IMG/VR virus record: IMGVR_UViG_3300001472_000024
Coordinates: 14,619 to 47,526 of that record
Direction: 5' to 3' (one strand)
DNA length: 32,908 bases
Source of the DNA: a virus
In this document: positions 10,859 to 30,021 of the stretch, piece after piece
Numbering within the stretch: the stretch's first letter is position 1
Layout: each line of letters begins with the position of its first letter
Notes under the pieces: model-generated
Told to the model about the DNA's origin: nothing
Database searches by the model: none
What the model saw: only the letters and a program-made list of their open reading frames with translations
Position numbers and translations under genes: made by a program

Positions 10859-12793
10859 TCATCTCACAAATCCACTAGAAGAAACACTCCTATTAATTTT
10901 ATTTGTTATCATATTTCCAACTTGGTCTGCTATCCTTCTTAATTCAGCATCGGAAGTATCTTTGGCGTTTATAGTAATGTTGATGTTAGTATCTCCCATC
11001 TTCATAGAATCACTACTATTGTGTACTCTACTACCCGCAGGTAACTTAACTAATTCCGGCCCACTCTCACCAACTAATTGTAAGCCGGAAGCGGAAACTA
11101 TACCGCCACTGGCAAATGCCCCCTTTATCTTTTTACTAGACATACTCTTACTCAACGAAGAACCAACTCTATCTTTTATCTTACCAAAGAATTTTTTGGC
11201 TCCTTTAACTAGACTTACTTTGAAAACGAAACTTTTAGCAAAGTCTTGTAGTGTGCTTACTATGTCACTAAAGAAATCACCATTAGTCATATAATTAAGT
11301 AATTTAGCAACAAACTCTACAGGTTCTCTAATTATCTTAAGTAGCAGGTCGTTTATTTCTTCTTTGTATTGAGTATATAGGGCTACTAAGAAAGCCGCCA
11401 CTAAAACAAATACTGCTAGTGGTAGTGCATAAGTAGCAAGCAACTGTAGTCCCATAGCAACCAATGTCTTTGCCATCCAAACTCCCGCTACCAACATACC
11501 TGCTTGAACTGCATACTCTATTACTGCGGCGGCGAAGGTAGGATTACTAAACATTTCATTGAAGAAATCTATTATTAATCCAAATCCTGCTACTAATGTA
11601 GTCCATGCCAATTCGACTAGCAGTTTCCCTCCGTCTATTAATAAGTCCTTTACCTTCTCTAACATAGGTGGTATTAGTTCAAATGCTTTCTCATAGTCTC
11701 CGCCAATAAAGGCAAAGGCTATCTTGAATATATCCATCACTACACTAAATACTCCTATAACAAAGTCTTTTATGTCGGCTATCAATCCCATTTCTTCTAA
11801 TACTTTGAATATTTCATATGCGGCTTTTACAAATAATAGGAATGCTATTGCTCCAAATATGACAAATAATATCATCTTTTGTAAATTAGGTAATATTGAC
11901 TTTTGCATCATATTGTTAAAATCCAATATCATCTGTTGATACTTCTTTCTATTCTTTGCTAATTTATACATACCCATTAAAGGAGCGAAAGGTAAAGCAA
12001 GAGCCTTGAATTGTTTAGGGTCAAAGAAACTTTTCTTTAAACTTTCAAAGCCTTCTTTTTTACTGTCTTTAGAAATGCCTTCTTGTTCTTTGGACATTTT
12101 TCTTTTTTCTCTTTTGACGGCATCTTTTACTTCAAGTTCAGTCTGTTCTTCGCCAAAGCCTCTTTCTTTTGATTTTTTTCTAGCCGCTTTTTCTGCTAAT
12201 ACTAATCTATCTTTATCAAAAGCGTGAGCCTTTTTTGCCATTTTTATGACATCTTCTTCTTCCTTTCGCATTTGCTTATGTTTTTCCGAAACACTATTGT
12301 AGGCTTTAGCCATAGCATAGGCTTCGTCACCTGTTGCTTTGAGTGCTATTTGAAATGCCGCAGTATCTTGTATTTGTTCTTTTAAAACATTCATATCTGC
12401 TTCTTCAGCAATTCCCTTTCTATAGTTCTCATAAGCAGCCATAGTGTCTTTCATTGCGGTATTAAGAGTATCGTAATTCTTTATATTCTTAACAATAGAG
12501 TCATTTTGTTTATTTCTTGCTTTAGCATTTTCTTGAGACGCTATAGAAAACTCGGATAAGATACCCAAGGCACCTCTTAGATAGTTTTGTACTTTCCAAA
12601 GAGGAGTACCGGAAACTAACCTACTAAAAATAGTCCATTTTTTACCGGCTGAACTTAATGAATTAGCGGCATCAGTTACTTCTTTAAATAGCCCTTTAAA
12701 CTCAACACCCGAACGAAAGGAAACTCTTTCTAAACTTGCTAATGAATCTCCAAGACTTTCTATTTCTCTTTCTGTCTTTTCGAGGTCACTCAT
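10859..12793 (-). CDS. tail tape measure protein
   Basis: About 644 residues. The C-terminus is diagnostic: 'FASGGIVSASGLQLVGESGPELVKLPAGSRV' type sequence (Ala-Ser-Gly-Gly-Ile-Val followed by the GESGPELVKLP core), as in many tape measure proteins. The N-terminal 250 residues are coiled coil and very charged. The middle (about 310-480) has several strongly hydrophobic helices that could enter the host membrane at infection. It follows the frameshifted chaperone genes, as expected. The frame opens at GTG 12802, but the ATG at 12793 has GGTGA five bases upstream while the GTG has no good site, so 12793 is preferred; the GTG is part of that ribosome site. By the usual rule of about 1.5 angstrom per residue, the tail would be near 100 nm. 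Confidence 0.88.
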   Translation of the reverse strand: MSDLEKTEREIESLGDSLASLERVSFRSGVEFKGLFKEVTDAANSLSSAGKKWTIFSRLVSGTPLWKVQNYLRGALGILSEFSIASQENAKARNKQNDSIVKNIKNYDTLNTAMKDTMAAYENYRKGIAEEADMNVLKEQIQDTAAFQIALKATGDEAYAMAKAYNSVSEKHKQMRKEEEDVIKMAKKAHAFDKDRLVLAEKAARKKSKERGFGEEQTELEVKDAVKREKRKMSKEQEGISKDSKKEGFESLKKSFFDPKQFKALALPFAPLMGMYKLAKNRKKYQQMILDFNNMMQKSILPNLQKMILFVIFGAIAFLLFVKAAYEIFKVLEEMGLIADIKDFVIGVFSVVMDIFKIAFAFIGGDYEKAFELIPPMLEKVKDLLIDGGKLLVELAWTTLVAGFGLIIDFFNEMFSNPTFAAAVIEYAVQAGMLVAGVWMAKTLVAMGLQLLATYALPLAVFVLVAAFLVALYTQYKEEINDLLLKIIREPVEFVAKLLNYMTNGDFFSDIVSTLQDFAKSFVFKVSLVKGAKKFFGKIKDRVGSSLSKSMSSKKIKGAFASGGIVSASGLQLVGESGPELVKLPAGSRVHNSSDSMKMGDTNINITINAKDTSDAELRRIADQVGNMITNKINRSVSSSGFVR

Positions 12794-12798
12794 TAACT

Positions 12799-13005
12799 TC
12801 ACCGTCTATTTCTTGCTTTTTCCAGTTCTTCGCCCTTTATTGTTTCAATTACACCATGAACAGTTAATAAATCTTTTACTAAACTAACTGGCATTTTATA
12901 CACCTCTAAGGGACTTATGCTTAATGCAGAAGATAGAGTATAGACCATTATTAAACTAATAGTCTTTACATCGGAAGGCTTTCCTTTTAACGCCTTCCTA
13001 ATCAT
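12799..13005 (-). CDS. tail assembly chaperone, frameshift extension (gpT-like)
   Basis: A 68-codon frame whose ATG overlaps the stop of the previous chaperone gene (ATGA). It is probably made mainly as the C-terminal part of a -1 frameshift fusion rather than alone. The A AAA AAG heptamer just upstream shifts the ribosome exactly into this frame (..EKK-G-MIRKAL), giving a fusion of about 189 residues. The sequence is basic at both ends, with a hydrophobic helical centre (about 18-40) and a C-terminus 'GEELEKARNRR'. It sits just before the tape measure gene, the exact position of lambda gpG/gpGT extensions, which bind the tape measure and recruit tail-tube subunits. Sequence identity to known T domains was not recognised. 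Confidence 0.7.
   Translation of the reverse strand: MIRKALKGKPSDVKTISLIMVYTLSSALSISPLEVYKMPVSLVKDLLTVHGVIETIKGEELEKARNRR
12973..12998 (-). promoter_or_regulatory. frameshift-stimulating stem-loop
   Basis: Perfect 7-bp stem GGAAGGC/GCCTTCC with a 12-base loop on the minus strand. It starts nine bases after the A AAA AAG heptamer, within the normal spacing for a stimulatory structure of -1 frameshifting. Confidence 0.75.
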
Positions 13006-17047: not shown

Positions 17048-18169
17048 TCACTCCAATAAGTAAACGAGGTCGCCTTTGCCCTTTAAGATTTCGTTGGCTT
17101 CAGTTGTTAAAATATCATACTTTTCTTTAGTAGATATATTACCACCAGTTTCAGCAATCATGATTGTTTGGTCATCGTGTCTTAATAATTCAGCCGCAAC
17201 TAACATTGTTGTAGCCTTATGTATAGCCGAAGGAACTCTACCATCGCCTGCAATATAACTAACAATTATTGAGTTTTGAGTATGGTATGGATAATCTCTT
17301 AAGAAAAAGACTCTCCCTTCATCACCTATCTTCCAAAAACTTCCTAGTCTCTTCATGTCTTGCTTATCAGTAAAGGCTTCTGTAATAGTATTAGAGTTTT
17401 CACCCGCTTTATCTGCTAGCGTTATAGTACAAGCCGAGCCATCTTCCCCTGCTAACAAACTAGAAATATTTATTTTATTTCCATCATCGGGGTCTGTTGA
17501 AGCATAAAAGAAATCGGAAATAGCGATTGAAGAATCAGCCTCCGAGTTCTTGAATTTTTCAGTAGTTGCTCCTGTAAACTGGGCAGTTTTAGAAGGATAT
17601 TCTTCATTGATTAAGTGGCATATTTCTTGAGCCATTGTCTTAGAACCAAAACTACTATTGAATGTATTATTAGCACTAGTCCCTCCTTCTCCTGTAAAGT
17701 ATAATATCCATGAAGAACCACTATTAGGTAATTGTAGAGTTATGCTTCTTAGATGTTTATAATTATCACTATTCAAAGTAATACTTGCTTGTGCTGATGC
17801 CAACTCCAAATAACTATTACCTTGCCATACTTTAAGAGAAACTATCTTCTTAACTTTCATAGTTGCTAACTGAATAAAACCAACATAGCCACCATAATAA
17901 GTTTGCATAGGATGATTCATAAACTCAAAGTTATGAAATTCATTCTTATGTATAATGGGCCTATAAGACCTCTTTACTTTGTCATCAACAATACCTTCAA
18001 TGTTCTTTATGATACTGCCAACTTGTGCTTGAGAAGGGAAGGTGGAAGAACTAAATGCAGGTATTTGTAGCATATCGGAAACTGCTCCTTTGTCTGTGTA
18101 GTAGCCTTTTCCTGTAGAGTAATCTACATCAATAGAAGTGTAGTCGCTTGGGGATGATGCTATTGCCAT
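17048..18169 (-). CDS. head-tail adaptor (gp6-like connector) protein
   Basis: A 373-residue protein. The C-terminal 75 residues match the helical part of head-tail adaptors of the HK97 gp6 type: 'VPSAIHKATTMLVAAELLRHDD', then a loop, then a last helix 'KEKYDILTTEANEILKGKG'. The N-terminal region (about 30-60) has the matching 'QVGSIIKNIEGIVDDKVKRSYR' helix. Between them is a large beta insertion (about 75-290), including 'EGGTSANNTFNSSF' and 'INISSLLAGEDGSACTITLAD', which makes the protein about three times the usual size. It probably forms the ring beneath the portal. It follows the 606-residue gene by one base. Confidence 0.62.
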   Translation of the reverse strand: MAIASSPSDYTSIDVDYSTGKGYYTDKGAVSDMLQIPAFSSSTFPSQAQVGSIIKNIEGIVDDKVKRSYRPIIHKNEFHNFEFMNHPMQTYYGGYVGFIQLATMKVKKIVSLKVWQGNSYLELASAQASITLNSDNYKHLRSITLQLPNSGSSWILYFTGEGGTSANNTFNSSFGSKTMAQEICHLINEEYPSKTAQFTGATTEKFKNSEADSSIAISDFFYASTDPDDGNKINISSLLAGEDGSACTITLADKAGENSNTITEAFTDKQDMKRLGSFWKIGDEGRVFFLRDYPYHTQNSIIVSYIAGDGRVPSAIHKATTMLVAAELLRHDDQTIMIAETGGNISTKEKYDILTTEANEILKGKGDLVYLLE

Positions 18170-18170
18170 A

Positions 18171-19991
18171 TTAAATTCCTCTCTCTAGTGTATCAACTCT
18201 ACTTCTAATAGAATTAATAAATGTATTTACCTTAGAGATATTAGTTTTGCTTTCTAATATCTTGGTAGTTTGTCTTTTTGGTTTTGGAATAGGATTAAGG
18301 CCGCCACCTTTGAAGATGATTTGTTTTCTTTTAGCGTTGAATCTTTTTATTTCTGTTTTATTCTTAGTTGTACCTTTAGGATTCTTTTCTGTTTTATTAG
18401 TAGTCTTTGTTATTTTAGTCATGACAAATTCTATATCAAAAACATATTCTAAATCATTTAAATATCTAAGTAATATTTTTTGTAGTGACTCTTTAGGGTC
18501 ATCAAATGAAACGGGACTATCTTTAAAAACATTCAATTCTTTTATTTTTTTATTTGCTTCGGAATATGTATCTTCTTCTAAACTAAACATGGCTTGTGCT
18601 TTTTCTGCTATTATTTTTTGCTTTTCAGTCGCTACATAATTTCCTGCGGATAGTGTACTTTCTATGGATTTATTTTGACCTTTAAAGAATACACCGTATG
18701 GTATTTTTTTAATTTCTTTAACACTACTATAGTCTATCCCACTCAAACCAATCCCTATTATTTCTTCAAAGGGAATTTTCTTATCGTCATCGCTCTTAAG
18801 TTTATTATGTAACTCAACTATTTCTTTAGCAACTTTATTTGATACCATTTTCTTTTTTGCTAAACCCATAACTTCGCTTTGTTCGGGAGCAAACTTAGAG
18901 CCTTCTTTTATTCTTCTTCCCGATTCAGTTTCTTTATCTTCGTAAATACTCTTATCTTCTAAATCTCTTTCAATGTCTATCATTTCTTTTCTAAGTTCAT
19001 TGAGAACAGTTTTTTCTAAACCTTCTAACATCTTAGGAACACTATCAAGAAACTTATATTTCTTTACAGTTTCTTTATTATCTCTATCATATTTAACAGC
19101 CCCTTCTAAAATTAAAGGGTCTATCCTACTACCGTCTTTTATTTCTCTTAAAGTATTATTACCTATCTTATTAATTAAATATAATGGTATTTCTTGTAAG
19201 TCTAATCCTCTTACTGTAGTTCCTCTACTATCATCTGCCATTGCGAAACGAGTTTGGAATGTTTTTCCTCCCGAAGTAACTTCTTTTTTAGACTTAAAAC
19301 CATCCTTTCTACTAGTAATATCACCTGCTTTAGTTTGATTACCTACGGCCTCAATCAAGTTATAACTTTGACCTGCTTTATTTTCTCCTTTAATGCTAAT
19401 ATTAGTAAAGCCTAACTCTACTAACTTTTTAAACTTAGCACCCTCTCTAAAATTACTCATTTCATTTAATGTAACTGTTTTAGTAATCTTCTTACCATTC
19501 TTAACATTACTTTCCTTTTCTGTAACATTATACAAACTATCAAAATAACTATCGTAATTATCAATACCTTCCTTTAATGCAATCTTAGTATCTTTTTCAT
19601 CAGTAGGGGATTCTAATATTCTCGACACAACTGCCCTACTTAATTCATTAGGTGCTTTATCCATCAAAGATTCAATAGTTTTTATTGATTCATATTTTTG
19701 TTTAAGTGGTTTATTTTCAATAAGTTCTTTAATAGGAGTATTTTTTAGTTTATCTAGTCCCTGCTTATATGTTTTTTTATATTCATCCACTATCTTAGTA
19801 CCAGTATTATACTGCTTGACTTCATCTAACTCCAATATGTTATTTATCTCATTAGCATTTTCATTGCTATCCCCTAACCTAACTTGTTGTTTTTTATCTA
19901 AAACTCCAACAACAACATACTCTTTAAAAAACTCTAAAGCAACTTCTTCGTTCCAATTTGGGATAGAGCCACCTAAGATGTCTACTTTCAA
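18171..19991 (-). CDS. large unknown virion-operon protein
   Basis: A 606-residue protein starting at TTG 19991, supported by GAAGGTGGTCTT upstream. It is very rich in Lys, Glu, Asn and Ile. The N-terminal part (about 1-210) is helical. A more beta-like stretch (about 210-300) contains 'AGDITSRKDGFKSKKEV' and 'TRFAMADDSRGTTVRGLDL'. A helical centre and a very basic region near 510-560 (Lys/Thr-Asn repeats ending FNAKRKQIIFKGGG) follow. There are no transmembrane segments and no recognisable catalytic motif. It sits between the GTPase cassette and the head-tail adaptor. It might be a minor head or ejected internal protein, but the sequence does not decide. Confidence 0.45.
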   Translation of the reverse strand: MKVDILGGSIPNWNEEVALEFFKEYVVVGVLDKKQQVRLGDSNENANEINNILELDEVKQYNTGTKIVDEYKKTYKQGLDKLKNTPIKELIENKPLKQKYESIKTIESLMDKAPNELSRAVVSRILESPTDEKDTKIALKEGIDNYDSYFDSLYNVTEKESNVKNGKKITKTVTLNEMSNFREGAKFKKLVELGFTNISIKGENKAGQSYNLIEAVGNQTKAGDITSRKDGFKSKKEVTSGGKTFQTRFAMADDSRGTTVRGLDLQEIPLYLINKIGNNTLREIKDGSRIDPLILEGAVKYDRDNKETVKKYKFLDSVPKMLEGLEKTVLNELRKEMIDIERDLEDKSIYEDKETESGRRIKEGSKFAPEQSEVMGLAKKKMVSNKVAKEIVELHNKLKSDDDKKIPFEEIIGIGLSGIDYSSVKEIKKIPYGVFFKGQNKSIESTLSAGNYVATEKQKIIAEKAQAMFSLEEDTYSEANKKIKELNVFKDSPVSFDDPKESLQKILLRYLNDLEYVFDIEFVMTKITKTTNKTEKNPKGTTKNKTEIKRFNAKRKQIIFKGGGLNPIPKPKRQTTKILESKTNISKVNTFINSIRSRVDTLERGI

Positions 19992-20001
19992 AAGACCACC
20001 T

Positions 20002-20679
20002 TCACATTAACCATTTAGCCCAAGCAGCACCTTTTTGAATTGCTCCGCCTAAACCTAAACCGCTTTGTGGAGGTTCGTAACTCATTTGTCCTTGAGCATC
20101 TATCCAATATGGTCTTCCATAATTATCTGTGCCTGTTGGTGGAACTGGATAACCACTACCATTATTCATAGCACCTTGCATTTGTTGATATTGTTGTGTG
20201 TTACCCGTTAATCCCGCTACTGCCATACCTGCTGTTGGTTGTGCCATTTGTTGCATACCGCCACCGCCACTAAATCCTTGAGATTCAAGATATTGTTGTT
20301 TTGCTAACTTTCTTTGATTAACAACTTCTGTATTGATTGCCGCATCTAATACTTTTTGAATATCTAACTCAATGTTTTCTGCGGTAATCTTTTCAAATTC
20401 TCTCATAGCATCGTTGTGTATCTTCAACATACCTGTTGTAGAATCTGTTGTAAATTGTAACTTAGCCAACATTTTGCTGACTACTCTTTCTACAACATCT
20501 TCCATAAGATTTTCCATTTGTGTTAGAAACTGTTGTCCATGATATTGAAAGAATTCTTCTACATGGTTTTCTTGTAAAGAAAGTAAGTTATTTACATTCT
20601 TAAATTGTTGGTCGCTTTGTTGTTGTACCGATGCCAACACTGTTCCGTTACTTGTTCCGAATACTCCCATATCACTCAC
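20002..20679 (-). CDS. Gln-rich coiled-coil protein
   Basis: A 225-residue protein. It opens at GTG 20679 behind AGGAGAACAG; an in-frame ATG three codons on is a possible alternative start behind GGTGAGTGAT. Residues 15-130 form long amphipathic helices rich in Gln, Glu and Leu/Val ('MENLMEDVVERVVSKMLAKLQF'), probably a coiled coil. Residues 135-190 are Gly/Gln/Pro/Met-rich and likely disordered. The C-terminus (about 207-225) is a small hydrophobic amphipathic helix ending KGAAWAKWLM that could touch a membrane or partner. It overlaps the zinc-type protein gene by eight bases, so the two are probably translated together. Function unknown; considered part of the GTPase cassette. Confidence 0.5.
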   Translation of the reverse strand: MSDMGVFGTSNGTVLASVQQQSDQQFKNVNNLLSLQENHVEEFFQYHGQQFLTQMENLMEDVVERVVSKMLAKLQFTTDSTTGMLKIHNDAMREFEKITAENIELDIQKVLDAAINTEVVNQRKLAKQQYLESQGFSGGGGMQQMAQPTAGMAVAGLTGNTQQYQQMQGAMNNGSGYPVPPTGTDNYGRPYWIDAQGQMSYEPPQSGLGLGGAIQKGAAWAKWLM

Positions 20680-21304
20680 CCTGTTCTCCTTTAATTAGAT
20701 AATTAACTCTTTCTGTATTTAATTGTATTTCCGCCATCAATCTAACTATTTCCGCTATTTGTGTTTCTGCATCAGTAGCCGGTGTTGGTGGCGTTATGTT
20801 CCACCCCATGCTAGTCAGCCTCATAACATCTTCTTTAGTTAAGTTGTTTAATTGTTGTCTTTTTAACATATTAGGCATTTTTGCTTTAGGAATAAACGCT
20901 TTAAAATCTAACCCATGTTCATCTGCTAATATTTGTTGTTGTAGCATCTCCATTTGTTTATGAATAGCCGCATGCTTTTGACAGTAAGTTCCCCTTAGTG
21001 GTCTTCCTTTCTCAACATTATCTAGTGGTATTGGTGGCCTTAAGTAGTCTCCTGCTTCCCAAATATGGTGAGTTCCACATACTACACATCTATCTTTAAA
21101 GTTAAACTTGTGGCCGTATTTTAAGAAAAGAATTTTTTTCTTTTCCGGTAGTAATACTTTCTTTATTTCTTTCATCTGCTTCTTTGGCTTTAGCGCATCA
21201 TATTGATAGTCTTCAATTGGCCCAACTGCCCTATATTGTTGCAGTTTAGGTAAAAAAGCACTCTTCATTTGTTGCGTCTGTATTAAATTCGGTTGCTGAT
21301 ACAT
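20672..21304 (-). CDS. CxxC...CxxH putative zinc-binding protein
   Basis: A 210-residue soluble protein with ATG behind GAGGAATGAAAG. Cys73 and Cys76 (RCVVCGTHH) and Cys108/His111 (YCQKHAAIH) give a CxxC-x31-CxxH arrangement, with His79, His80 and His115 also near. This looks like a treble-clef or HNH-like zinc-binding site without the full HNH catalytic pattern. The N-terminal 60 residues are basic ('KKQMKEIKKVLLPEKKKILF'), and the C-terminal helix near 170-205 is acidic. It directly follows the Arf-like GTPase and overlaps the coiled-coil gene. It may be an adaptor that binds the GTPase or nucleic acid; this is inference. Confidence 0.5.
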   Translation of the reverse strand: MYQQPNLIQTQQMKSAFLPKLQQYRAVGPIEDYQYDALKPKKQMKEIKKVLLPEKKKILFLKYGHKFNFKDRCVVCGTHHIWEAGDYLRPPIPLDNVEKGRPLRGTYCQKHAAIHKQMEMLQQQILADEHGLDFKAFIPKAKMPNMLKRQQLNNLTKEDVMRLTSMGWNITPPTPATDAETQIAEIVRLMAEIQLNTERVNYLIKGEQGE

Positions 21305-21314
21305 CTTTCATTCC

Positions 21315-21977
21315 TCAATAATCCTTTATCATAGTAGTTATTCCTTTATACACCATTTCGGGGTCGGACTTAGCCGATACTATATATTTAAAACAAGGTA
21401 TTCCCTTGTCATTCAACTGCCTCATTCCATACTTAAAAGGTTCAAATATTTCATGTTTGTCTATAGGGTTATTACTTTTATACTTCTCTCCCCACATATC
21501 ATACTTGTTTCCCCATATTCCTACGGCTATTGGATAATCCGATTCTTTTTTCTTTCTACCCGAAGGCCACCTATCTGCTACAATAGTATCTACTAGAAAC
21601 TTCCATGCTAATTGGTGGTCTAAGTTAGAAGGTGAATCTAAATGTCTATGGTCTATCATAAAAATAACATATCTTACTCTACGCTTCTGCATATCCTTAA
21701 CCCATTCTTTCCAATAGATTGCTTCCCCTCCTAAGTCAGCACTCTTAATTGTATGAGAACTACCATCAATCTTAACATTCTTTCTAGTGGCTCTATGTAA
21801 ACCAACGGTTCTATCCTTTATTGTGGGAACTTCGCCCCTTGTTCTAAGTTGATGACTAAGAGTTGTTTTACCAACCATAGTAGAACCATAAACTCCAAAG
21901 TTAATTGCATGAACTTTTTTGTAGAATCCTATTATTGCTTCCCCTACTAAAATAGCAAAGCCTGTCATTATGGACAT
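21315..21977 (-). CDS. Arf/Ras-like small GTPase
   Basis: A 220-residue protein with all five guanine-nucleotide motifs. G1 P-loop is GSTMVGKT (31-38). G2 probably involves T52 or T57. G3 is DLGGE (81-85), with the Arf-type DxGG rather than the Ras DTAG. G4 is NKYD (157-160). G5 is SAK (201-203). The order and spacing fit a Ras-superfamily GTPase, closest in pattern to Arf. Gln after DxGG is replaced by Glu85. Residues 5-19 (TGFAILVGEAIIGFY) are a hydrophobic or amphipathic segment before the G domain, as in membrane-bound Arf proteins. The preceding genes encode two membrane proteins. A GTPase inside a viral head module is very unusual. Its role in assembly or host membrane takeover is unknown. 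Confidence 0.8.
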   Translation of the reverse strand: MSIMTGFAILVGEAIIGFYKKVHAINFGVYGSTMVGKTTLSHQLRTRGEVPTIKDRTVGLHRATRKNVKIDGSSHTIKSADLGGEAIYWKEWVKDMQKRRVRYVIFMIDHRHLDSPSNLDHQLAWKFLVDTIVADRWPSGRKKKESDYPIAVGIWGNKYDMWGEKYKSNNPIDKHEIFEPFKYGMRQLNDKGIPCFKYIVSAKSDPEMVYKGITTMIKDY

Positions 21978-21978
21978 A

Positions 21979-22197
21979 TCAATGCCCCCAAATATCCTTT
22001 GCCCTCGCTATAAGCCATCCCATTATATTTATGTCAAAGACTCCCATTATGTTACCCACTAGAAAAGCAGACAATCCTAGACAGCCGCCCCAAAAATACA
22101 TCTTCATTTTTATGAAGAACATATCTGCCGAATGCGCCCGACTTTGATTATATACATAGTCGGATTCACTAAAACCCATTATGTCGCCAAAGACCAA
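21979..22197 (-). CDS. small single-span membrane protein
   Basis: A 72-residue protein. The frame opens at TTG 22197; the ATG at codon 7 (22179) is another possibility and neither has a clear ribosome site. Residues about 33-55 (MYFWGGCLGLSAFLVGNIMGVF) form one membrane span, flanked by a Lys/Met segment and a C-terminal 'WLIARAKDIWGH' amphipathic helix. It stops one base before the GTPase ATG, suggesting coupled translation and partnership with the GTPase. No family was recognised. Confidence 0.55.
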   Translation of the reverse strand: MVFGDIMGFSESDYVYNQSRAHSADMFFIKMKMYFWGGCLGLSAFLVGNIMGVFDINIMGWLIARAKDIWGH

Positions 22198-22208
22198 TCA
22201 ACCACAAC

Positions 22209-22616
22209 CTATTGTTGTATTGTTGCTAGAAATTCATTTCCTATTGTATTGTCGTCGTAGTCTTCAGTAGCCATAACATTACCACGCCAGTTTTCTCGCC
22301 TTACTGTACCGAACTGCTTCATACTATCCTGTAGTTTAGTTTTGATTTGTTCTTCTCTTTGTAGTCTTTGAAAATGATTTTCAATTTGTCTGTCTAGTAG
22401 TCTTATCTCAATCTTATCATTTAGTGATAGGTCAAACAATGCTTTCATAACCATTATTGCCCCTACTGTAATAAGACCAAATAAGACAGAATGTGCTAAT
22501 GCGCCGTAAGGAAATCCTAAACCGTATGCCGCATAGAAATATACATTCGCTCCGCTAACTGTTCCGACAAATAAAATTGTCATAACTAATCTTGTGTCTT
22601 GACTTAGTGCCGCCAT
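22209..22616 (-). CDS. two-span membrane protein with coiled-coil tail
   Basis: A 135-residue protein with ATG behind GAGGTTTTATT. Two hydrophobic spans are visible: about 9-31 (LVMTILFVGTVSGANVYFYA) and about 38-61 (the GALAHSVLFGLITVGAIMVM region). They are followed by a charged coiled coil (about 62-103) and a soluble C-terminal tail. It lies between a decoration-type gene and a second membrane protein, upstream of the Arf-like GTPase. Membrane proteins are not expected in the head module of a siphovirus, so it is probably a host-membrane factor, a holin-like protein or an anchor for the GTPase. The size would allow a holin, but no lysin gene is adjacent. Confidence 0.55.
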   Translation of the reverse strand: MAALSQDTRLVMTILFVGTVSGANVYFYAAYGLGFPYGALAHSVLFGLITVGAIMVMKALFDLSLNDKIEIRLLDRQIENHFQRLQREEQIKTKLQDSMKQFGTVRRENWRGNVMATEDYDDNTIGNEFLATIQQ

Positions 22617-22625
22617 AATAAAACC

Positions 22626-22931
22626 TCAGTTGAACTCGACAGAAACATTGGCCGTAGAACTTCCTACTTCTGTTACTTCCAAGAATATTCCACTTCTGCA
22701 TAGAACCCCATGCATGTCATATTCTAAGTTGTAATGTCCTGTTACTGAATGAAATATTCTAGCCACTTCTGTTCCACTGTTATCTGTTCCATTGAAAACC
22801 TTAATCGTAACTGCATCGTTTCCTGCAATTGTTATTGCCGCATGTATGCTAATTAACTTAGCATTTTCGTTACTTACAATTGCGCTTGCGCCCAATACTC
22901 CACTACTTCTACAACCGCCTATGCCCGTCAT
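22626..22931 (-). CDS. small beta-rich protein, capsid decoration candidate
   Basis: A 101-residue protein with ATG behind AGGTGATAGT. It opens with a Gly/Ser-rich stretch holding Cys7, then eight or so beta strands ('AKLISIHAAITIAG', 'DAVTIKVFNGTD', 'SGIFLEVTEVGSSTANVSVEF'). This jelly-roll-like strand pattern is common in viral capsid decoration proteins and small virion surface proteins. It is the last of four small genes following the capsid gene and is separated from the previous one by a hairpin. Function inferred from position and fold. Confidence 0.5.
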   Translation of the reverse strand: MTGIGGCRSSGVLGASAIVSNENAKLISIHAAITIAGNDAVTIKVFNGTDNSGTEVARIFHSVTGHYNLEYDMHGVLCRSGIFLEVTEVGSSTANVSVEFN

Positions 22932-24037: not shown

Positions 24038-25375
24038 TCACTGTATGTTTGTTATCTTTCCTTGACCACGGAAGAAGGAACATCCTACTTCACCAATTGT
24101 TCGATACAAAGCCCTGTTTCCTAGAGTTCCTACACCAAATGGATTACCATTAGCGATTCCGTCTTCAAAGTATTGTGTAGGTTTCATTACTGAAAGCCAC
24201 AAATGGTCTGTATCAAGGAATAATAGGTCACTTAGTTTTGTTGAAGCACCGCCAGTTTGACACATATCCTTAACTGGGATAAGTGGTATATCGTAGTAAG
24301 TAGCAACTCTAAAGCCCATTTCTTGGCCTTTAGTTCCTCTAACACCGTTTACTGTTGGTACGATTTCTTTTCTGTCCATAAATCTCTCTTGACTTTGTAA
24401 CAAATCAGCAAGTGCTTGAATTGTATCATATCCAGTTAGAATAACCTTTGGAGAACCACCGGCTAATTTTAGATTTCTAATCATATCGTTAAGTCTTGTT
24501 AGGGTCAATGAACGAACATTTCCTGCGGCGTAGCCACTACCAAAGTCTACTTCTGCATCAAGGAAAGAGGCTGCGGAGAATCTTTCACTACCGTAGATTT
24601 TTCCTAGTGCGTTAGAAGCGGATGTTGTATCAGTTGCTAGAACTCCACCATCAATTGCTAATAGTTCTGCTCTTGAGGTAATAACCTTGTTTAGAGAAGT
24701 ATAGTTGTTTCCGATATTTGGCATAGCGGCGACTTCACCATAATGTTCTAGTGGCATAACCAACATTTTGTTTTGTACTTCAGCATGGTGCTTACCCATA
24801 TCTTCACGCATTTGCGCTCTAATATCGCCAATTCCATCATCAATTTGTGCCATTTCCATAGCAAGTTCACTGAAATCAAATTGGTGTGCAACTACTTTAG
24901 GACTCATGTTTAGTTGAGCGTAAGTTGGTGCAATTGGGCCAAGTCCATCTTGTGCTGTTGATAGTGCCGCATTCTCCGGTACACCACCAATCATATCTGC
25001 TCTTGGACTATCCGAACCTAGTTCTGCTAAGTTTTCTGTTCCACTTGCATCAACAGTAAACAAGTTACCGCTTCCACCGGAAGGTCTTGACTTTAGAACT
25101 CTCCATCCGCTAGAACTGTAAGGTCTTTTTGAAATCATTGAAAGAGCGTTAACTTCTCTATTCAACATTGACCATACTTTTTGTCCGTAAACAATATTGT
25201 AAAGTGCAGATACATCACTAACAGCACTACCGGAGAATGCCGGAGAACCATCGTGTCCTGTGTGTATTCCACCAATAGCACCGGCTTGCTTCAAAAGAGC
25301 GTTACCGGCAGGTAGATTGTTTATTCCATATGTGCTTGCTTCTAAGTCTGCGATTGTATTAATATATCCTGTCAT
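24038..25375 (-). CDS. major capsid protein, HK97 fold
   Basis: A 445-residue protein immediately after the protease-scaffold gene. The N-terminal 60 residues are flexible, followed by 'ALYNIVYGQKVWSMLNREVNALSMI', an N-arm/E-loop-like segment rich in Ser/Gly (about 85-105). A long spine helix is seen at about 170-205 ('FDFSELAMEMAQIDDGIGDIRAQMREDMGKHHAEVQNKML'). The C-terminal half contains the P-domain pattern 'PKVILTGYDTIQALADLLQSQ' and the closing 'LLFLDTDHLWLSVMKPTQYFEDG' and 'YRTIGEVGCSFFRGQGKITNI' strands. Length and gene order (protease/scaffold, capsid, decoration) fit. The N-terminal arm (about 1-50) may be the part exposed or trimmed on maturation; no cleavage site is certain. Confidence 0.85.
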   Translation of the reverse strand: MTGYINTIADLEASTYGINNLPAGNALLKQAGAIGGIHTGHDGSPAFSGSAVSDVSALYNIVYGQKVWSMLNREVNALSMISKRPYSSSGWRVLKSRPSGGSGNLFTVDASGTENLAELGSDSPRADMIGGVPENAALSTAQDGLGPIAPTYAQLNMSPKVVAHQFDFSELAMEMAQIDDGIGDIRAQMREDMGKHHAEVQNKMLVMPLEHYGEVAAMPNIGNNYTSLNKVITSRAELLAIDGGVLATDTTSASNALGKIYGSERFSAASFLDAEVDFGSGYAAGNVRSLTLTRLNDMIRNLKLAGGSPKVILTGYDTIQALADLLQSQERFMDRKEIVPTVNGVRGTKGQEMGFRVATYYDIPLIPVKDMCQTGGASTKLSDLLFLDTDHLWLSVMKPTQYFEDGIANGNPFGVGTLGNRALYRTIGEVGCSFFRGQGKITNIQ

Positions 25376-25376
25376 C

Positions 25377-26087
25377 TTAAATTCCCCCTACCATCTTGTG
25401 AATGTCCGACCAATCCATGTTAGCCATTTCATCCATACTTGGGAGTTTTGCTTGTACTTCTTCTTGAGCCTTTAGAATAGTTTCCTTTTCTGTGGTCAAT
25501 GATTTCCTTAGTTGTGTAAATTCATCTTTAAGAGAAGCAATCTCGCTAGCCGCATCATAGTTTGCCTTTGCGATTGTGTTTTCTCTTGATGTAACTTCAG
25601 TAGCGAATCTTGCTTGGAATGATTTCTTTAGGTTATCATAAGCAAGAGTTTCTAACTGCTCTTGTCGGAAAGCCTCGTAAGCCTTCTCGATGTTTCCAAC
25701 TGACAAATCTAGTGTGTCAAATTCACCGTTACCAAAAGACTTTACTACTGGCATATCGGATGAAGTTGGTTTACCATTGTTAATTACAATACGGTCAGCA
25801 GGTTCTCCAATTTGGTTTCCTGCACCATCAAGAGTTCTTAAGTAAGCCTTTGCTTCCTCATCTTGATACTCGCCCATTTCCATGTCCCCTTCTTTATCAG
25901 CCAGTTCCATGTCTTCTTCGTCTTCTTTGTCCATGTAATTTCCTCTTTCCATGTCCCCTTCTTCATCAGCCATTTCATGTTCTTCAGTATGGCCTTTTTC
26001 ATCTATCTCTTCTTCTTTACGAAGCGTATTTACTTCTTCTAGCAAAGTATCTAACTCCGCTAATGCTTTTTCTAGTTTTTCACTCAT
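25377..26087 (-). CDS. nested capsid scaffold from an internal start
   Basis: An in-frame ATG at residue 193 of the protease-scaffold frame (26087-26085) opens with MSEKLEKALAELDTLLEE. It is preceded by AAAGGAGACATAAAC, with GGAG eight bases from the ATG, one of the strongest ribosome sites in the window. The predicted product is 236 residues: scaffold without protease. This matches the known phage strategy in which a protease-scaffold gene also makes free scaffold from an internal start (lambda C/Nu3). The scaffold would form the core around which capsid subunits assemble and be removed by the protease. The C-terminus is MDWSDIHKMVGGI. Confidence 0.75.
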   Translation of the reverse strand: MSEKLEKALAELDTLLEEVNTLRKEEEIDEKGHTEEHEMADEEGDMERGNYMDKEDEEDMELADKEGDMEMGEYQDEEAKAYLRTLDGAGNQIGEPADRIVINNGKPTSSDMPVVKSFGNGEFDTLDLSVGNIEKAYEAFRQEQLETLAYDNLKKSFQARFATEVTSRENTIAKANYDAASEIASLKDEFTQLRKSLTTEKETILKAQEEVQAKLPSMDEMANMDWSDIHKMVGGI

Positions 26088-26630
26088 GTTTATGTCTCCT
26101 TTATCTTGTTTCAAAATATCGAACCTCGCTTCGGGGTTAATTCCTTTTTCGCATATAGTAATTTCATGCAACTCTAACTTGCTGATTTCATTATAATCAC
26201 CTAAGTTTTCGTGGCTTTTCTTTACTTTTTGGAGGGCTTGGCCTCCTATGCTAAAAGACCTTAATGACCCTTTGCGAATGTTTCTGCCAACTTCCTTGGC
26301 TTTTTCTATATCGTCTCGTAGTTTAATTACTACAAAGAAACCTACATCATCTACTTCGGACTTCCATAGTCGCCCGCTAGTATCTCTATAAGAATCTACA
26401 ACTTCTCCAACTTGAACATTGGAATGGTTTGTCATAACATTTCTAAATTTAGAGTCTCCCATAAATTTAGTAACTGCTTCATTAAGTGCCTTTAGTGTGA
26501 TTAAGTCATTTTGCTTATCAACTATCTCTATACTGGCATAGCCGCCTATCATCAAATCGTCGCTTCTAGCCTTGAGGATGGAGAACCCATCATTTCTCGT
26601 TGCTAATACTGCCGATGACATTTCGCTCAA
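25377..26630 (-). CDS. prohead protease fused to capsid scaffold
   Basis: The frame is open to GTG 26663, but a GGAGAT site lies about ten bases before TTG 26630, so that start is preferred (about 417 residues). Numbering here is from the GTG (428 residues). Residues 30-185 match the HK97/XkdF-type serine prohead protease: 'GGYASIEIVDKQND', the likely catalytic His80 in 'TNHSNVQVGEVVD', and a Ser in 'GSLRSFSIGG' (136 or 138). The rest (193-428) is scaffold. It has a coiled coil, an acidic stretch with two related copies of ADxEGDME(R/M)G near 231-270, another coiled coil (about 325-403) and a conserved C-terminal peptide MDWSDIHKMV. It cleaves capsid and scaffold during head maturation. The fusion plus internal start resembles the lambda C/Nu3 arrangement. 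Confidence 0.85.
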   Translation of the reverse strand: MSEMSSAVLATRNDGFSILKARSDDLMIGGYASIEIVDKQNDLITLKALNEAVTKFMGDSKFRNVMTNHSNVQVGEVVDSYRDTSGRLWKSEVDDVGFFVVIKLRDDIEKAKEVGRNIRKGSLRSFSIGGQALQKVKKSHENLGDYNEISKLELHEITICEKGINPEARFDILKQDKGDINMSEKLEKALAELDTLLEEVNTLRKEEEIDEKGHTEEHEMADEEGDMERGNYMDKEDEEDMELADKEGDMEMGEYQDEEAKAYLRTLDGAGNQIGEPADRIVINNGKPTSSDMPVVKSFGNGEFDTLDLSVGNIEKAYEAFRQEQLETLAYDNLKKSFQARFATEVTSRENTIAKANYDAASEIASLKDEFTQLRKSLTTEKETILKAQEEVQAKLPSMDEMANMDWSDIHKMVGGI

Positions 26631-26651
26631 AAGGAAAAAATCTCCTTTTGA
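26627..26651 (-). promoter_or_regulatory. perfect 9-bp inverted repeat at the protease start
   Basis: TCAAAAGGA-GATTTTT-TCCTTTTGA. The stem contains the AGGAGAT ribosome site and the TTG start itself, so folding would hide both. It may control protease-scaffold translation. Confidence 0.55.
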
Positions 26652-26658
26652 TATATAA
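26651..26658 (-). promoter_or_regulatory. candidate TATA box before the capsid module
   Basis: The minus strand reads TTATATAT, close to the archaeal TATA consensus. It is about 25 bases upstream of the TTG/ATG starts of the protease gene and lies next to an A+T-rich stretch after the ligase-like gene. It could drive the capsid module. Short A/T-rich boxes are common in such DNA, so confidence is low. Confidence 0.3.
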
Positions 26659-26680
26659 TACACACGGTTATTTTAAACGA

Positions 26681-29230
26681 TTAGTCCTCATTTGGAGGTA
26701 ATTCAAGACTACTGTATTTATCTTCATAAATATTCCATAGTCCTCTATCACTATCAGTATCAGCAGGTTTTTGTTCATAGCCTGTCCATGCTAGCCACAT
26801 TCTTTTTCCTTTAACTTCAAGCATTCTAACATGAAGTTTAGTTTCAAACTTATTACCATCTAAGAAATACTCATGGTAGCCTTCCTTTTGAACGCCTAAT
26901 TTAACATCTCCACTGTCGATGACTTTACGCTTAGATATATTCTTAGCAACCATAGCAGGGAACTTACCGGCCTTGCCAAACAATTCAAAGATGTCATCTT
27001 TACTATCTAATCTTACCATCCAGTTGATGCTCTCATCGCCTAACTTCATAACAATATTTAGATTATCATCATCTCTAAGATATACCTTAAACTCACCACT
27101 TCTGTATTTTTCGGGAGTTTCATATTCTTTTTTAATGGTGTCCATTAATATCTTATCATGTTCAGCAAACAACTTTTTTGTTTTAGCATCAAAAGATATT
27201 CCATCTCTATTCTCAAACCAATCTTTTACTCGGCTTTCTTTACTTTCTAGTATGTCTTGATATTCTTTTTTGTGATTTTTTACTAAGAAATTATGAACAA
27301 CTTTCGGTACTTGTGCGCCCTTTTCCTTTAAGAAATTAAATATAGCAACAGTAAGTTTAGATTGTTTTGTTTTCATTATTTCTTCTGCCTGTTCTTTCCA
27401 CAGGTCTAAATCCATTAGTGCATTCTTGGCCATTAGATTGTCTTCTTCAAATCCATAGATAGTAAAACCATCCATGTCTCCTTTGATTATAATATTGGCT
27501 TCGCCGTGAATATGGTCAGAAACTACAATCCCTTTCTCTACTTCTTCTACATTATATTTCAAAGACTTATCCGTATCATTAATTAGCATTTGTAGAGTAA
27601 CTAACTTGTCCGGTGTCTTACTTTCAGCAATTTCATTTATCTTTGCTGAATAAACAACTGGCTTACCCTTAACTTGTTTTACTTTATCAATAGAAACTCT
27701 AACAACTTCTCCGACATCTGCCGAAACCTTAGTATTAGTAGCACTACCTACATTAAGATAATTTACACCTTCTATTTTTTCACCATCTTCTTCAACTGGC
27801 CCCGCCCCTAACTTATAAGAAAAGTTAGAACCACTCTTTTTCTTATCAAGTACAATTAAATCTAACTCAACAAAAGGTTTCCATCTAATCCACTTGGGGT
27901 TTTTCTTTGTTCCTAAGTAGTAAGTTGATGTAGAGTCTTTAATCATAGCACCTTCAGCAGTAGGCATTTCCATAATCTTCTTAGCATACTCTTCAACATC
28001 CTTTAGACTATCAGCAACTCTTGTATCTTTTTTAGATGGGAATGTTAAGGCTTCACTAGAATGTATAGAATAGTTATTGAACATTATTTGCATTCTGTTT
28101 TGTAATGTATCTTCCATGAGATTTTCTTCGTTGTGTCTCATAATATCAAACACATGAATTCTAGCCTTGCCCTCTCTTTTTCCTTCTAAGTATTCTACCG
28201 CTTCTTTTCTTTTAAGAGAATCCTCTCCGTCAAATAAAACTAATGAAGCATCTAATATACAGTCTCCGAATTGTTTCTTTTTCAATTCTTCTATTGCGTC
28301 TTTACATTTACTAGATATATCTTTACCTGTATAATCATAGACTTTTATATTCTTATCTATTTTATGAAGTTGTATTCTAAATCCATCATATTTTTCTTGG
28401 ACATAGTATTCTCCACTAAACCCTTTTAGTTCATTCATATCTTCTATTGTAAATATTCTATACATTGGTTTGTTAGGAATAATAAAATCACTTTGGGCTT
28501 TCTCTTCATCAGATTTCTTTTCTTTCAAGATAGTTTTTTTATCTTTATCAGTTTCATCCTTGGCTTTAGTTTCATCTACATCTGTATCTATGTCTTCTAA
28601 TTCAAGCCACTCTTCTTTAGTGTTCTTAGATAAGAATATTAATTCTAGCATATTCATAGCGGCCTTCACCTTAGACTCCACTTTCTTAGAATCTTTATCG
28701 TCGCCATAATGCTCTATAATGTAAAGTGCAACATCATCAACTTCTAAGTCTAGCCCAGTTAAACCTTCAGTAATATCATCGGGCTTCATATCTTTAATTG
28801 AATATGCTTCTTTAGGTAGTGCTTTATCATCTTCTCTAATAGCATAGTGAACAAACTTAATCATAAGTTCGGGTGAACCTAATAATGCTTCTAATACATT
28901 ACCTTTAAATTTTTTAGCGAAAGGGTCACTAACTTCTTCCGAAGAATATCTTAATGCTTTAATTCCTTGATATAATTTTTCAGCATTGTTTGTTGTTGGG
29001 TCGGAAGCATCTTTAGATTCTAGTAGGTCTTCCTCAATGTAATCCTTAAGTTCATTTGAAAGAGCATCGCTCATTTCATATGCTTCTTTAATTTTATTTA
29101 CTGCGTTTCTCCATTTAGAACCGTATTCTTTTGGGTCGGTTCTTGCTGAAAGATAAGCGACTCTTGTTCTTTCAAAGAGTCTTAGAATATCTGTGGATAT
29201 TGACTTATCCTTTTCAATAAGGAGGGGCAT
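26681..29230 (-). CDS. ATP-dependent DNA-ligase-like protein, LigD-like layout
   Basis: An 849-residue protein. Residues 1-245 are helical and charged (unknown). Residues 258-455 are a nucleotidyltransferase domain: motif I EKYDGFR with Lys280 as the expected adenylated lysine, motif III region ILDASLVLFDG (326-336), motif IIIa HVFDIM (359-364), motif IV EGAMIKD (426-432) and motif V KWIRWKP (446-452). An OB-fold-like segment follows (about 455-535). In motif III the usual Glu is Ser330, so activity is uncertain. Residues 570-600 (SDHIHGEANI...) and 715-820 (LNIVMKLGDESINWMV...GYHEYFLDG) loosely resemble a degenerate LigD phosphoesterase. The gene sits directly before the protease, an odd place for a ligase. 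It may repair packaged DNA, or the fold may serve a structural role. Confidence 0.72.
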   Translation of the reverse strand: MPLLIEKDKSISTDILRLFERTRVAYLSARTDPKEYGSKWRNAVNKIKEAYEMSDALSNELKDYIEEDLLESKDASDPTTNNAEKLYQGIKALRYSSEEVSDPFAKKFKGNVLEALLGSPELMIKFVHYAIREDDKALPKEAYSIKDMKPDDITEGLTGLDLEVDDVALYIIEHYGDDKDSKKVESKVKAAMNMLELIFLSKNTKEEWLELEDIDTDVDETKAKDETDKDKKTILKEKKSDEEKAQSDFIIPNKPMYRIFTIEDMNELKGFSGEYYVQEKYDGFRIQLHKIDKNIKVYDYTGKDISSKCKDAIEELKKKQFGDCILDASLVLFDGEDSLKRKEAVEYLEGKREGKARIHVFDIMRHNEENLMEDTLQNRMQIMFNNYSIHSSEALTFPSKKDTRVADSLKDVEEYAKKIMEMPTAEGAMIKDSTSTYYLGTKKNPKWIRWKPFVELDLIVLDKKKSGSNFSYKLGAGPVEEDGEKIEGVNYLNVGSATNTKVSADVGEVVRVSIDKVKQVKGKPVVYSAKINEIAESKTPDKLVTLQMLINDTDKSLKYNVEEVEKGIVVSDHIHGEANIIIKGDMDGFTIYGFEEDNLMAKNALMDLDLWKEQAEEIMKTKQSKLTVAIFNFLKEKGAQVPKVVHNFLVKNHKKEYQDILESKESRVKDWFENRDGISFDAKTKKLFAEHDKILMDTIKKEYETPEKYRSGEFKVYLRDDDNLNIVMKLGDESINWMVRLDSKDDIFELFGKAGKFPAMVAKNISKRKVIDSGDVKLGVQKEGYHEYFLDGNKFETKLHVRMLEVKGKRMWLAWTGYEQKPADTDSDRGLWNIYEDKYSSLELPPNED

Positions 29231-29236
29231 ATAGCA

Positions 29237-29773
29237 TCAACTAACTCTTCTTTCTCTTTCTTCGGGGGTTTCTAGGCTTCTTCTATATTCGCTATAACTT
29301 GACACATTTTCCTTTCCTTGTTTTAATCTAAGGTTGTTATGGTCTTTTCTATCAATATTAATTTCCATGCCCTTGAGTGCGTTTTCTAATTCCTTTAAAT
29401 TAGGTGTTGAAGATAATGACGATGCTTTCCCAAAAATCTTTATTTTTCTAAGGGCATTTTTAAATTCATATTCAAGTAGTCTAACTGCTTTATCGTAGGC
29501 TTCATTATCTTTCTCTATTGTTCTTTCTGCTTTTTTTAAACTCTCGCCCGCTAAACCATACCCTTCATCTTTTCGAGTTTGATTAGTAATCTTAGAAGCA
29601 TCTTGTACTTTAGGTCGCTTAATCTTAACTTCCTCTACGCTAGTATCTACTTCTTTTACTTGAGTAGGCTCTATGTTCATTCTCTTTTTTGCGCTCAATT
29701 CTTCTTTAGCCTTTCTTGCTTTTTCAATAGCAAGGCTGATTATTTTTTCTTGTCTTGTAACTTTTTCCGGCAT
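29237..29773 (-). CDS. charged helical protein
   Basis: A 178-residue protein, mostly helical and rich in Lys, Glu and Arg, with no transmembrane segment or known motif. Its ATG overlaps the end of the 82-residue gene. Central helices (about 85-120) are 'KAERTIEKDNEAYDKAVRLL' and a following 'YEFKNALRKIKIFGK'. The C-terminus ends SLETPEERERRVS. It precedes the ligase-like gene by six bases. Function unknown. Confidence 0.5.
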   Translation of the reverse strand: MPEKVTRQEKIISLAIEKARKAKEELSAKKRMNIEPTQVKEVDTSVEEVKIKRPKVQDASKITNQTRKDEGYGLAGESLKKAERTIEKDNEAYDKAVRLLEYEFKNALRKIKIFGKASSLSSTPNLKELENALKGMEINIDRKDHNNLRLKQGKENVSSYSEYRRSLETPEERERRVS

Positions 29774-30021
29774 TATTGTCCACCTACATTTTCTACCATC
29801 TTATGAATATCTTTCCAATCCATATTTCCTACATCTTTCAATGGGGAACCGCCAATGGTTCCGTTGTTCATTCTTGGAGTAGGACTATCAACAACGACAA
29901 AACCGGACTTCATTAGTAGGTTATCGTCATTGTAAACTGCTCTCTCTAAACTTTCTATCTTAGAAGTCAGTGCCTTGATTATCTCAAGTAGTTCTTCATT
30001 AATTGTATTTTCTTCACTCAT
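29773..30021 (-). CDS. mini-scaffold-like protein sharing the scaffold C-terminus
   Basis: An 82-residue protein with ATG behind GGAGGAAAAGAG. Residues 1-33 form an amphipathic coiled coil beginning MSEENTINEELLEIIKAL, similar in style to the scaffold start MSEKLEKALAELDTLLEE. A flexible middle (about 40-63) follows. The C-terminus is NMDWKDIHKMVENVGGQ, nearly identical to the scaffold's ANMDWSDIHKMVGGI. In many phages the scaffold C-terminus contacts the capsid, so this protein may bind the same capsid or protease site, for instance to recruit neighbours into the head. That is inference; the shared peptide is seen directly. Confidence 0.6.
   Translation of the reverse strand: MSEENTINEELLEIIKALTSKIESLERAVYNDDNLLMKSGFVVVDSPTPRMNNGTIGGSPLKDVGNMDWKDIHKMVENVGGQ

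Follow-up and report, generated by a model that had tools for sequence, protein, structure and literature searches.

Small GTPases of the Ras superfamily are rare in tailed viruses, and the locus described here raises the question of what such a protein does when its gene lies within a virion operon. We analysed a stretch of 32,908 nucleotides (hereafter the window), which is part of a 52.7-kb IMG/VR record; its features are listed in Table 1, and genes without a name are referred to by their lower coordinate. The ORF of the GTPase is encoded on the minus strand, the plus-strand translation of the same interval being riddled with stops, and it shares its strand with the head and tail genes. 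A single base separates it from the upstream gene of the 72-residue protein, and 10 bases from the downstream gene of the 210-residue protein. The original prediction had placed the gene inside the virion operon and next to two membrane proteins, and this setting was borne out: the prohead protease and an HK97-type capsid protein lie on one side and the tape measure protein on the other, and the products of the two adjoining genes (21979-22197 and 22209-22616) have strongly hydrophobic segments.

Table 1. Features of the GTPase locus in the window, and the holin-like cassette of related viruses that lack the block.
Feature	Coordinates	Strand	Remarks
Ras-superfamily small GTPase, 220 aa, with a predicted N-terminal hydrophobic helix	21315..21977	-	Motifs DLGGE, NKYD and SAK; profile matches
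72-aa protein with one hydrophobic (probable transmembrane) segment	21979..22197	-	Evolves most closely with the GTPase
135-aa membrane protein	22209..22616	-	Hydrophobic segments, then a charged helical tail
210-aa putative zinc-binding protein	20672..21304	-	Conserved CxxC...CxxH; no Pfam match
225-aa protein whose N-terminal half is helical and coiled-coil-like (by eye)	20002..20679	-	Well conserved
Conserved flank of the block	22626..22931	-	Weak homologues in the sister clade, so outside the exclusive block
373-aa probable head-tail connector (by position)	17048..18169	-	The other conserved flank, in both clades
606-aa protein between the block and the connector	18171..19991	-	A ~1000-aa protein stands here in the sister clade
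HK97-fold major capsid protein	24038..25375	-	
Prohead protease with a C-terminal scaffold-like part ending MDWSDIHKMVGGI	25377..26663	-	
Tape measure protein	10859..12802	-	Sets the tail side of the cluster
Holin/XhlA-like cassette	L345:11194-12411 (G005), G006:67666-68495, G007:36028-36363		Upstream of the terminase gene in G005

All the G motifs, including the Arf-type DxGG, were expected in this protein and are indeed present: G1 GSTMVGKT (residues 31-38), T57 within RTVG, G3 D81-L-G-G-E85, G4 NKYD (157-160) and G5 SAK (201-203). Searches of viral contigs with increasingly divergent queries yielded 165 distinct full-length homologues, with pairwise identities down to 54%, and G31, G36-K37-T38, T57, D81-x-G83-G84, N157-K158-x-D160 and S201-A202-K203 are invariant in every one of them; the same conservation table holds one more residue set free of exceptions. 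Judged from this alignment, the retention of the motifs is far beyond chance.

The window protein alone gave weak Pfam matches below the cut-off (MMR_HSR1, E 0.0064; Ras, E 0.034) and matched NCBIfam small_GTP with an E-value of 1.5e-4, and the best Pfam E-values among individual members of the family were 1.2e-5 for MMR_HSR1, 1.6e-5 for Ras, 3.1e-5 for SRPRB and 3.8e-5 for Roc. The best PDB sequence matches of the family were KRas/HRas, with Arl8 close behind; a PDB search with the single window sequence gave zero matches. AlphaFold models built with 14 and then 55 close sequences were poor (mean pLDDT 58 and 54), and their top Foldseek matches against the PDB were all Ras, Rab or G-alpha, with TM of about 0.3. 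Given the intact guanine-specificity motifs together with these profile and Foldseek matches, we regard it as established, at the level of sequence, that the protein represents a virus-specific family of Ras-superfamily small GTPases; the same intact motifs make it very likely that the enzyme is competent. It is extremely improbable that we are dealing with an unrelated P-loop protein (a packaging ATPase, a kinase or a Sak4-like protein) that merely resembles a GTPase. This idea could draw on the only PHROGs match of the window protein, a weak one to the P-loop protein Sak4 (E 0.098), and on a few AAA-type Pfam matches in some family members, but the guanine-specific NKxD and SAK are fixed in 165 of 165 homologues, and it is Ras-superfamily profiles, not those of an unrelated P-loop family, that lead in both the sequence and the structure searches. 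Among the INPHARED phages, the GTPase gave only chance matches to T4-like tail fibres. As for the earlier description of the protein as an Arf-like small GTPase, its Ras-superfamily part stands, whereas the Arf part is not settled, as the scores of the Ras, Roc, SRbeta, MMR_HSR1 and Arf profiles are similar: of 33 members, 16 match the Pfam Arf profile and more match each of MMR_HSR1, SRPRB, Roc and Ras, which across the family do as well as Arf or better. Arf is the best Pfam match for one divergent member (L265, E 3e-4).

The Glu reported in place of Gln after DxGG is correct for the window sequence, yet 48 of the 165 homologues have the usual Gln at this position (residue 85), the other 117, the window included, having Glu. 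At least two changes are needed to explain this distribution on the GTPase tree, and the presence of Gln85 in 48 homologues shows Glu85 to be the state of a lineage, the canonical residue being found in the same family. Residues 85 and 110 represent a natural coupled change at a catalytic position, since Gln85 is always accompanied by Asp110, and Glu85 by His110 in 108 homologues and by Asp110 in nine.

The N-terminus, foreseen as a hydrophobic helix, is hydrophobic throughout the family, and the AlphaFold models predict it to be helical with low confidence. On the Eisenberg scale, residues 2-19 are strongly hydrophobic in both groups, averaging 0.67 in sequences with Glu85 and 0.51 in those with Gln85, whose N-terminus is less hydrophobic and more amphipathic. 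Residue 2 is Ser or Thr in 164 of the 165 homologues. Between residues 137 and 149 all members contain an insert whose net charge is at least +1 (mean +2.7) and which should sit in the loop joining alpha3 to beta5. Proteins with the Ras fold have this loop at the end that faces away from the nucleotide, where strand 1 also begins; as the AlphaFold models are poor, the helix and the basic loop were placed from this general knowledge of the fold. A hydrophobic helix and a basic patch at one pole would be the pattern of a membrane-anchored GTPase, and this suggests that the protein is targeted to a membrane.

Few viruses of the surface ocean are as common as magroviruses, and an ATP-dependent DNA ligase is one of their features. 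The virus of the window looks like a magrovirus (Magrovirales), because a halovirus-related capsid protein, a split DNA polymerase B and an ATP-dependent DNA ligase in the cluster are found together. The nearest named relatives of its capsid protein are haloviruses of the Druskaviridae (HCTV/HVTV, at 24-25% identity), the N- and C-halves of DNA polymerase B lie apart in the window's record and in most GTPase-bearing records, and the large contigs measure 87-101 kb. The ligase domain is part of an 849-residue protein with long extra regions (26681-29230), whose gene adjoins that of the prohead protease inside the head-gene cluster. Magroviruses have in common with the viruses studied here a size of ~90-97 kb and a Druskaviridae-related capsid protein, and the split PolB-NTD/CTD recurs in the published map of the Aoguangviridae, order Magrovirales (PMC10768690); according to the literature the hosts of Magrovirales are Poseidoniales archaea. 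The magrovirus literature that we examined does not mention a GTPase, although an earlier annotation may stand in the tables of the original 2017 magrovirus or the 2025 Poseidoniales virus papers; literature searches for small GTPases in tailed viruses of archaea brought up no relevant work.

Within its clade, a large one among the magroviruses, the gene is found at the same position in all 126 unique neighbourhoods that have enough flank, as part of a five-gene block coding for the 135- and 72-residue membrane proteins, the GTPase, the zinc-motif protein and the coiled-coil protein. No member of it is ever missing, and the order is invariably capsid protein, 22626, 22209, 21979, GTPase, 20672, 20002 and 17048. 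In the 20672 protein the CxxC...CxxH motif is conserved in nearly all of 174 sequences (Cys in 172, 171 and 170, His in 170). A second, sister clade of magroviruses, with capsid proteins 50-56% identical to that of the window, lacks the GTPase, as do haloviruses; the sample that showed this was ranked from a halovirus capsid protein and hence is not biased towards the window. Whole-record searches found no GTPase in block-less records of 94, 87 and 61 kb nor in haloviruses. In these viruses the same flanking head genes are contiguous, and sensitive HMM searches revealed 22209, 21979, the GTPase, 20672 or 20002 in 0 of 13 block-less loci. Thus the five genes are gained or lost as one unit. The gene 22626 was rejected as a member of the exclusive block, since the HMM search detected weak homologues in the sister clade that make it a flank, and the membrane protein gp124 of the druskavirus HVTV-1, encoded at the corresponding place, was rejected as a counterpart because the block HMMs do not match it.

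A stringent peptide scan of 84,980 genomes found no cellular relative of the GTPase, bar one viral contig that seems to have been misbinned: L155 (NZMJ01000024.1), placed in a 'Maricaulis' metagenome-assembled genome, is a piece of a magrovirus that carries the entire block. It is also worth recording that IMGVR_UViG_3300021958_000021 (184,733 bases) carries two different copies of the block ~92 kb apart (L072/L146 and L076/L150), probably because the assembly fused two magrovirus genomes.

The GTPase is the best conserved of the eleven proteins compared, with a mean identity of 0.72, followed by the capsid protein with 0.67 and the other nine with 0.42-0.66. Partial correlations of pairwise distances linked it to 21979 (0.40) and to 20002 (0.35), the values for the capsid protein and the connector being -0.01 in both cases. 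The distances of 20672 go with those of the connector (0.32), even though this gene sits between the GTPase and 20002; the co-variation of the GTPase with 20002 is not predicted from linkage alone. The products of the GTPase gene, 21979 and 20002 may therefore form a complex, co-variation being a pointer to it and not proof because the sequences are not independent. In 66 pairs of viruses (among L256, L258, L263, L247 and others) the capsid proteins are at least 90% identical and the GTPases less than 82%; therefore, the capsid genes recombine independently of the block.

Arf, Sar1 and Arl proteins have in common with the viral GTPase a hydrophobic N-terminal helix directly before strand 1, a T-[VI]-G switch I, DxGG(Q) and NKxD. 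In contrast to Arf, whose N-terminal helix carries a myristoylated Gly2, the viral protein lacks Gly2 (as does Sar1), mostly has Glu after DxGG and carries the basic-patch insert; its spacings, of 44 residues between G1 and G3 and of 76-88 between G3 and G4, are longer than those of Arf. SRbeta also places a Ras-like GTPase after an N-terminal hydrophobic anchor, and the SRPRB profile matches 28 of 33 members (best E 3.1e-5); however, this profile is not singled out and the block is unrelated to SRP genes. The Ras/Rab-like GTPases of giant viruses (Pithovirus, Orpheovirus, Bodo saltans virus) are likewise virus-encoded and gave weak structural matches in a viral library (E 3e-3 or worse), but they belong to viruses of eukaryotes, whereas the protein described here is conserved and fixed in position within the head cluster of a tailed virus. 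There is also a resemblance in parts to ArvA of Haloferax volcanii, a vesiculating GTPase tied to membrane budding, with which the block shares an archaeal setting, Arf-like features, an N-terminal helix (amphipathic in ArvA) and a small zinc-motif neighbour, a zinc-ribbon partner in the case of ArvA (PMC10927574). The block differs in being viral and in lying in a virion operon, and its genes were rejected as relatives of ArvB and ArvC, as the neighbours of the GTPase gave no Pfam match to DUF2073 or DUF2072 at E-values up to 1. The two systems are likened by their described parts and not by sequence, so we speak of a resemblance and do not claim membership.

Short terminal motifs recur in these viruses. 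W-[KE]-[DN]-I-[LI]-K stands at the start of many magrovirus proteins with no other relationship (12 of 115 genes in G005, loci L345-L349; 15 of 98 in G006, loci L355-L359; also in G018, loci L350-L354) and is almost never internal; a similar M-x-W-x-D-I-H-K-M closes the protease-scaffold protein of the window (25377-26663) and an 82-residue protein (29773-30021). This W-x-D-I-x-K-type motif resembles a tag that would direct packaged cargo to the capsid. Variable cassettes of proteins starting with MW..[IL]LK (53 genes of 26 families) are inserted directly before or after the GTPase gene, 39 of the 53 genes lying within ~1 kb of it (cassette loci L090:8668-9243, L094:7157-7992, L126:8669-9516, L150:7056-7999, L163:3814-4317 and L139:7503-8000). 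Some of their products seem enzyme-like by eye (nucleotidyltransferase, acetyltransferase, metallopeptidase), none having a confident Pfam match. A restriction of these cassettes to GTPase-bearing viruses was considered and rejected, because whole block-less genomes are full of them.

The block-less genomes G005 and G006 contain, in addition, a three-gene membrane cassette encoding a coiled coil with a C-terminal membrane segment, a two-segment holin-like protein and a one-segment protein, whose similarity to XhlA, haemolysin and holin families is weak and sub-threshold (E 0.014-0.1). Its central 120-residue protein is present in the three long block-less records and in none of the 18 block-bearing contigs at least 87 kb long, a contrast that amounts to a single phylogenetic split, 3 versus 18 genomes, and may be coincidental. 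No holin, endolysin or other lysis-family match was obtained for 21979 and 22209 in Pfam or PHROGs.

Together, these data suggest that the block-bearing magroviruses probably put a host-membrane step under the control of GTP. Our best explanation, which we put forward tentatively, is that a membrane-anchored GTP switch and its block partners act late at this membrane for virion release. The GTPase would be an active switch on the inner face of the host membrane, anchored by its hydrophobic N-terminal helix with the aid of the conserved basic loop that joins helix 3 to strand 5 and is expected at the pole where the N-terminal helix lies. It would work with the co-varying 72-residue membrane protein and the 225-residue coiled-coil-like protein; the 135-residue membrane protein is a probable further partner, and the zinc-motif protein may be a regulator of the complex. 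The complex would remodel or open the membrane late in infection for egress or to time lysis, and in the sister clade the holin-like cassette may do this job. GTP hydrolysis, membrane binding and late expression of the GTPase are predictions from the sequence, and release is the least certain part of the explanation. Nevertheless, egress or lysis seems more likely than capsid building as the late membrane step, because the sister clade builds its head without the block and because of the contrast with the holin-like cassette. That a GTP-driven egress or lysis module actually replaced the cassette in magroviruses, opening or remodelling the membrane of a host without peptidoglycan, is a doubtful extension of this proposal.

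The position of the gene beside the head genes would fit assembly as well as release. A GTPase that holds proheads or the connector at the host membrane and sets the time of capsid assembly or maturation, the membrane proteins serving as anchors, would account for the invariant place of the block between capsid or decoration genes and the connector (126 of 126 neighbourhoods) and for the two adjoining membrane proteins, and prohead assembly does begin on the membrane in some tailed phages. We consider this role rather unlikely, as sister magroviruses and haloviruses, which lack the block, make a head of this type with homologues of the protease, capsid and connector genes, and the partial correlation between GTPase and capsid vanishes once the other genes are accounted for. 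The GTP-controlled capsid assembly envisaged in the original prediction is weakened by the same comparison, since sister-clade records of 87 and 94 kb hold these head genes and no GTPase.

An unlikely alternative in our estimation is that the block acts on the host, disrupting or mimicking a membrane GTPase system of the ArvA vesiculation type, for example against vesicle shedding, superinfection or division. The amphipathic helix and zinc-ribbon partner ArvC of ArvA (PMC10927574) are paralleled by the N-terminal hydrophobic helix and the CxxC/CxxH neighbour of the viral block; however, the neighbours lack DUF2072 and DUF2073, the place in a late structural cluster argues for late expression, and the peptide scan offered no cellular relative beyond the apparently misbinned viral contig. 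Less probable still is a virion-borne GTPase that is delivered at entry and helps the genome to cross the membrane. Its gene does lie among the head genes, and genes with the common W-x-D-I-x-K terminal tag, plausibly coding for packaged cargo, are inserted right beside it, but the absence of this tag from the GTPase and its four partners, apart from one chance internal match, speaks against entry by way of it.

The reading that we prefer, a membrane-anchored GTP switch acting in release, bears on the exit of archaeal tailed viruses from cells without peptidoglycan. A strictly conserved, virus-specific GTPase module, with a block-less sister clade as a natural control, makes the mode of exit testable with recombinant proteins and without a cultured virus. 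Furthermore, the family adds to the small GTPases found outside cells and displays natural Gln/Glu changes at a catalytic position. If the proposed role is true, it would represent the first release step controlled by a small GTPase in a virus of prokaryotes.
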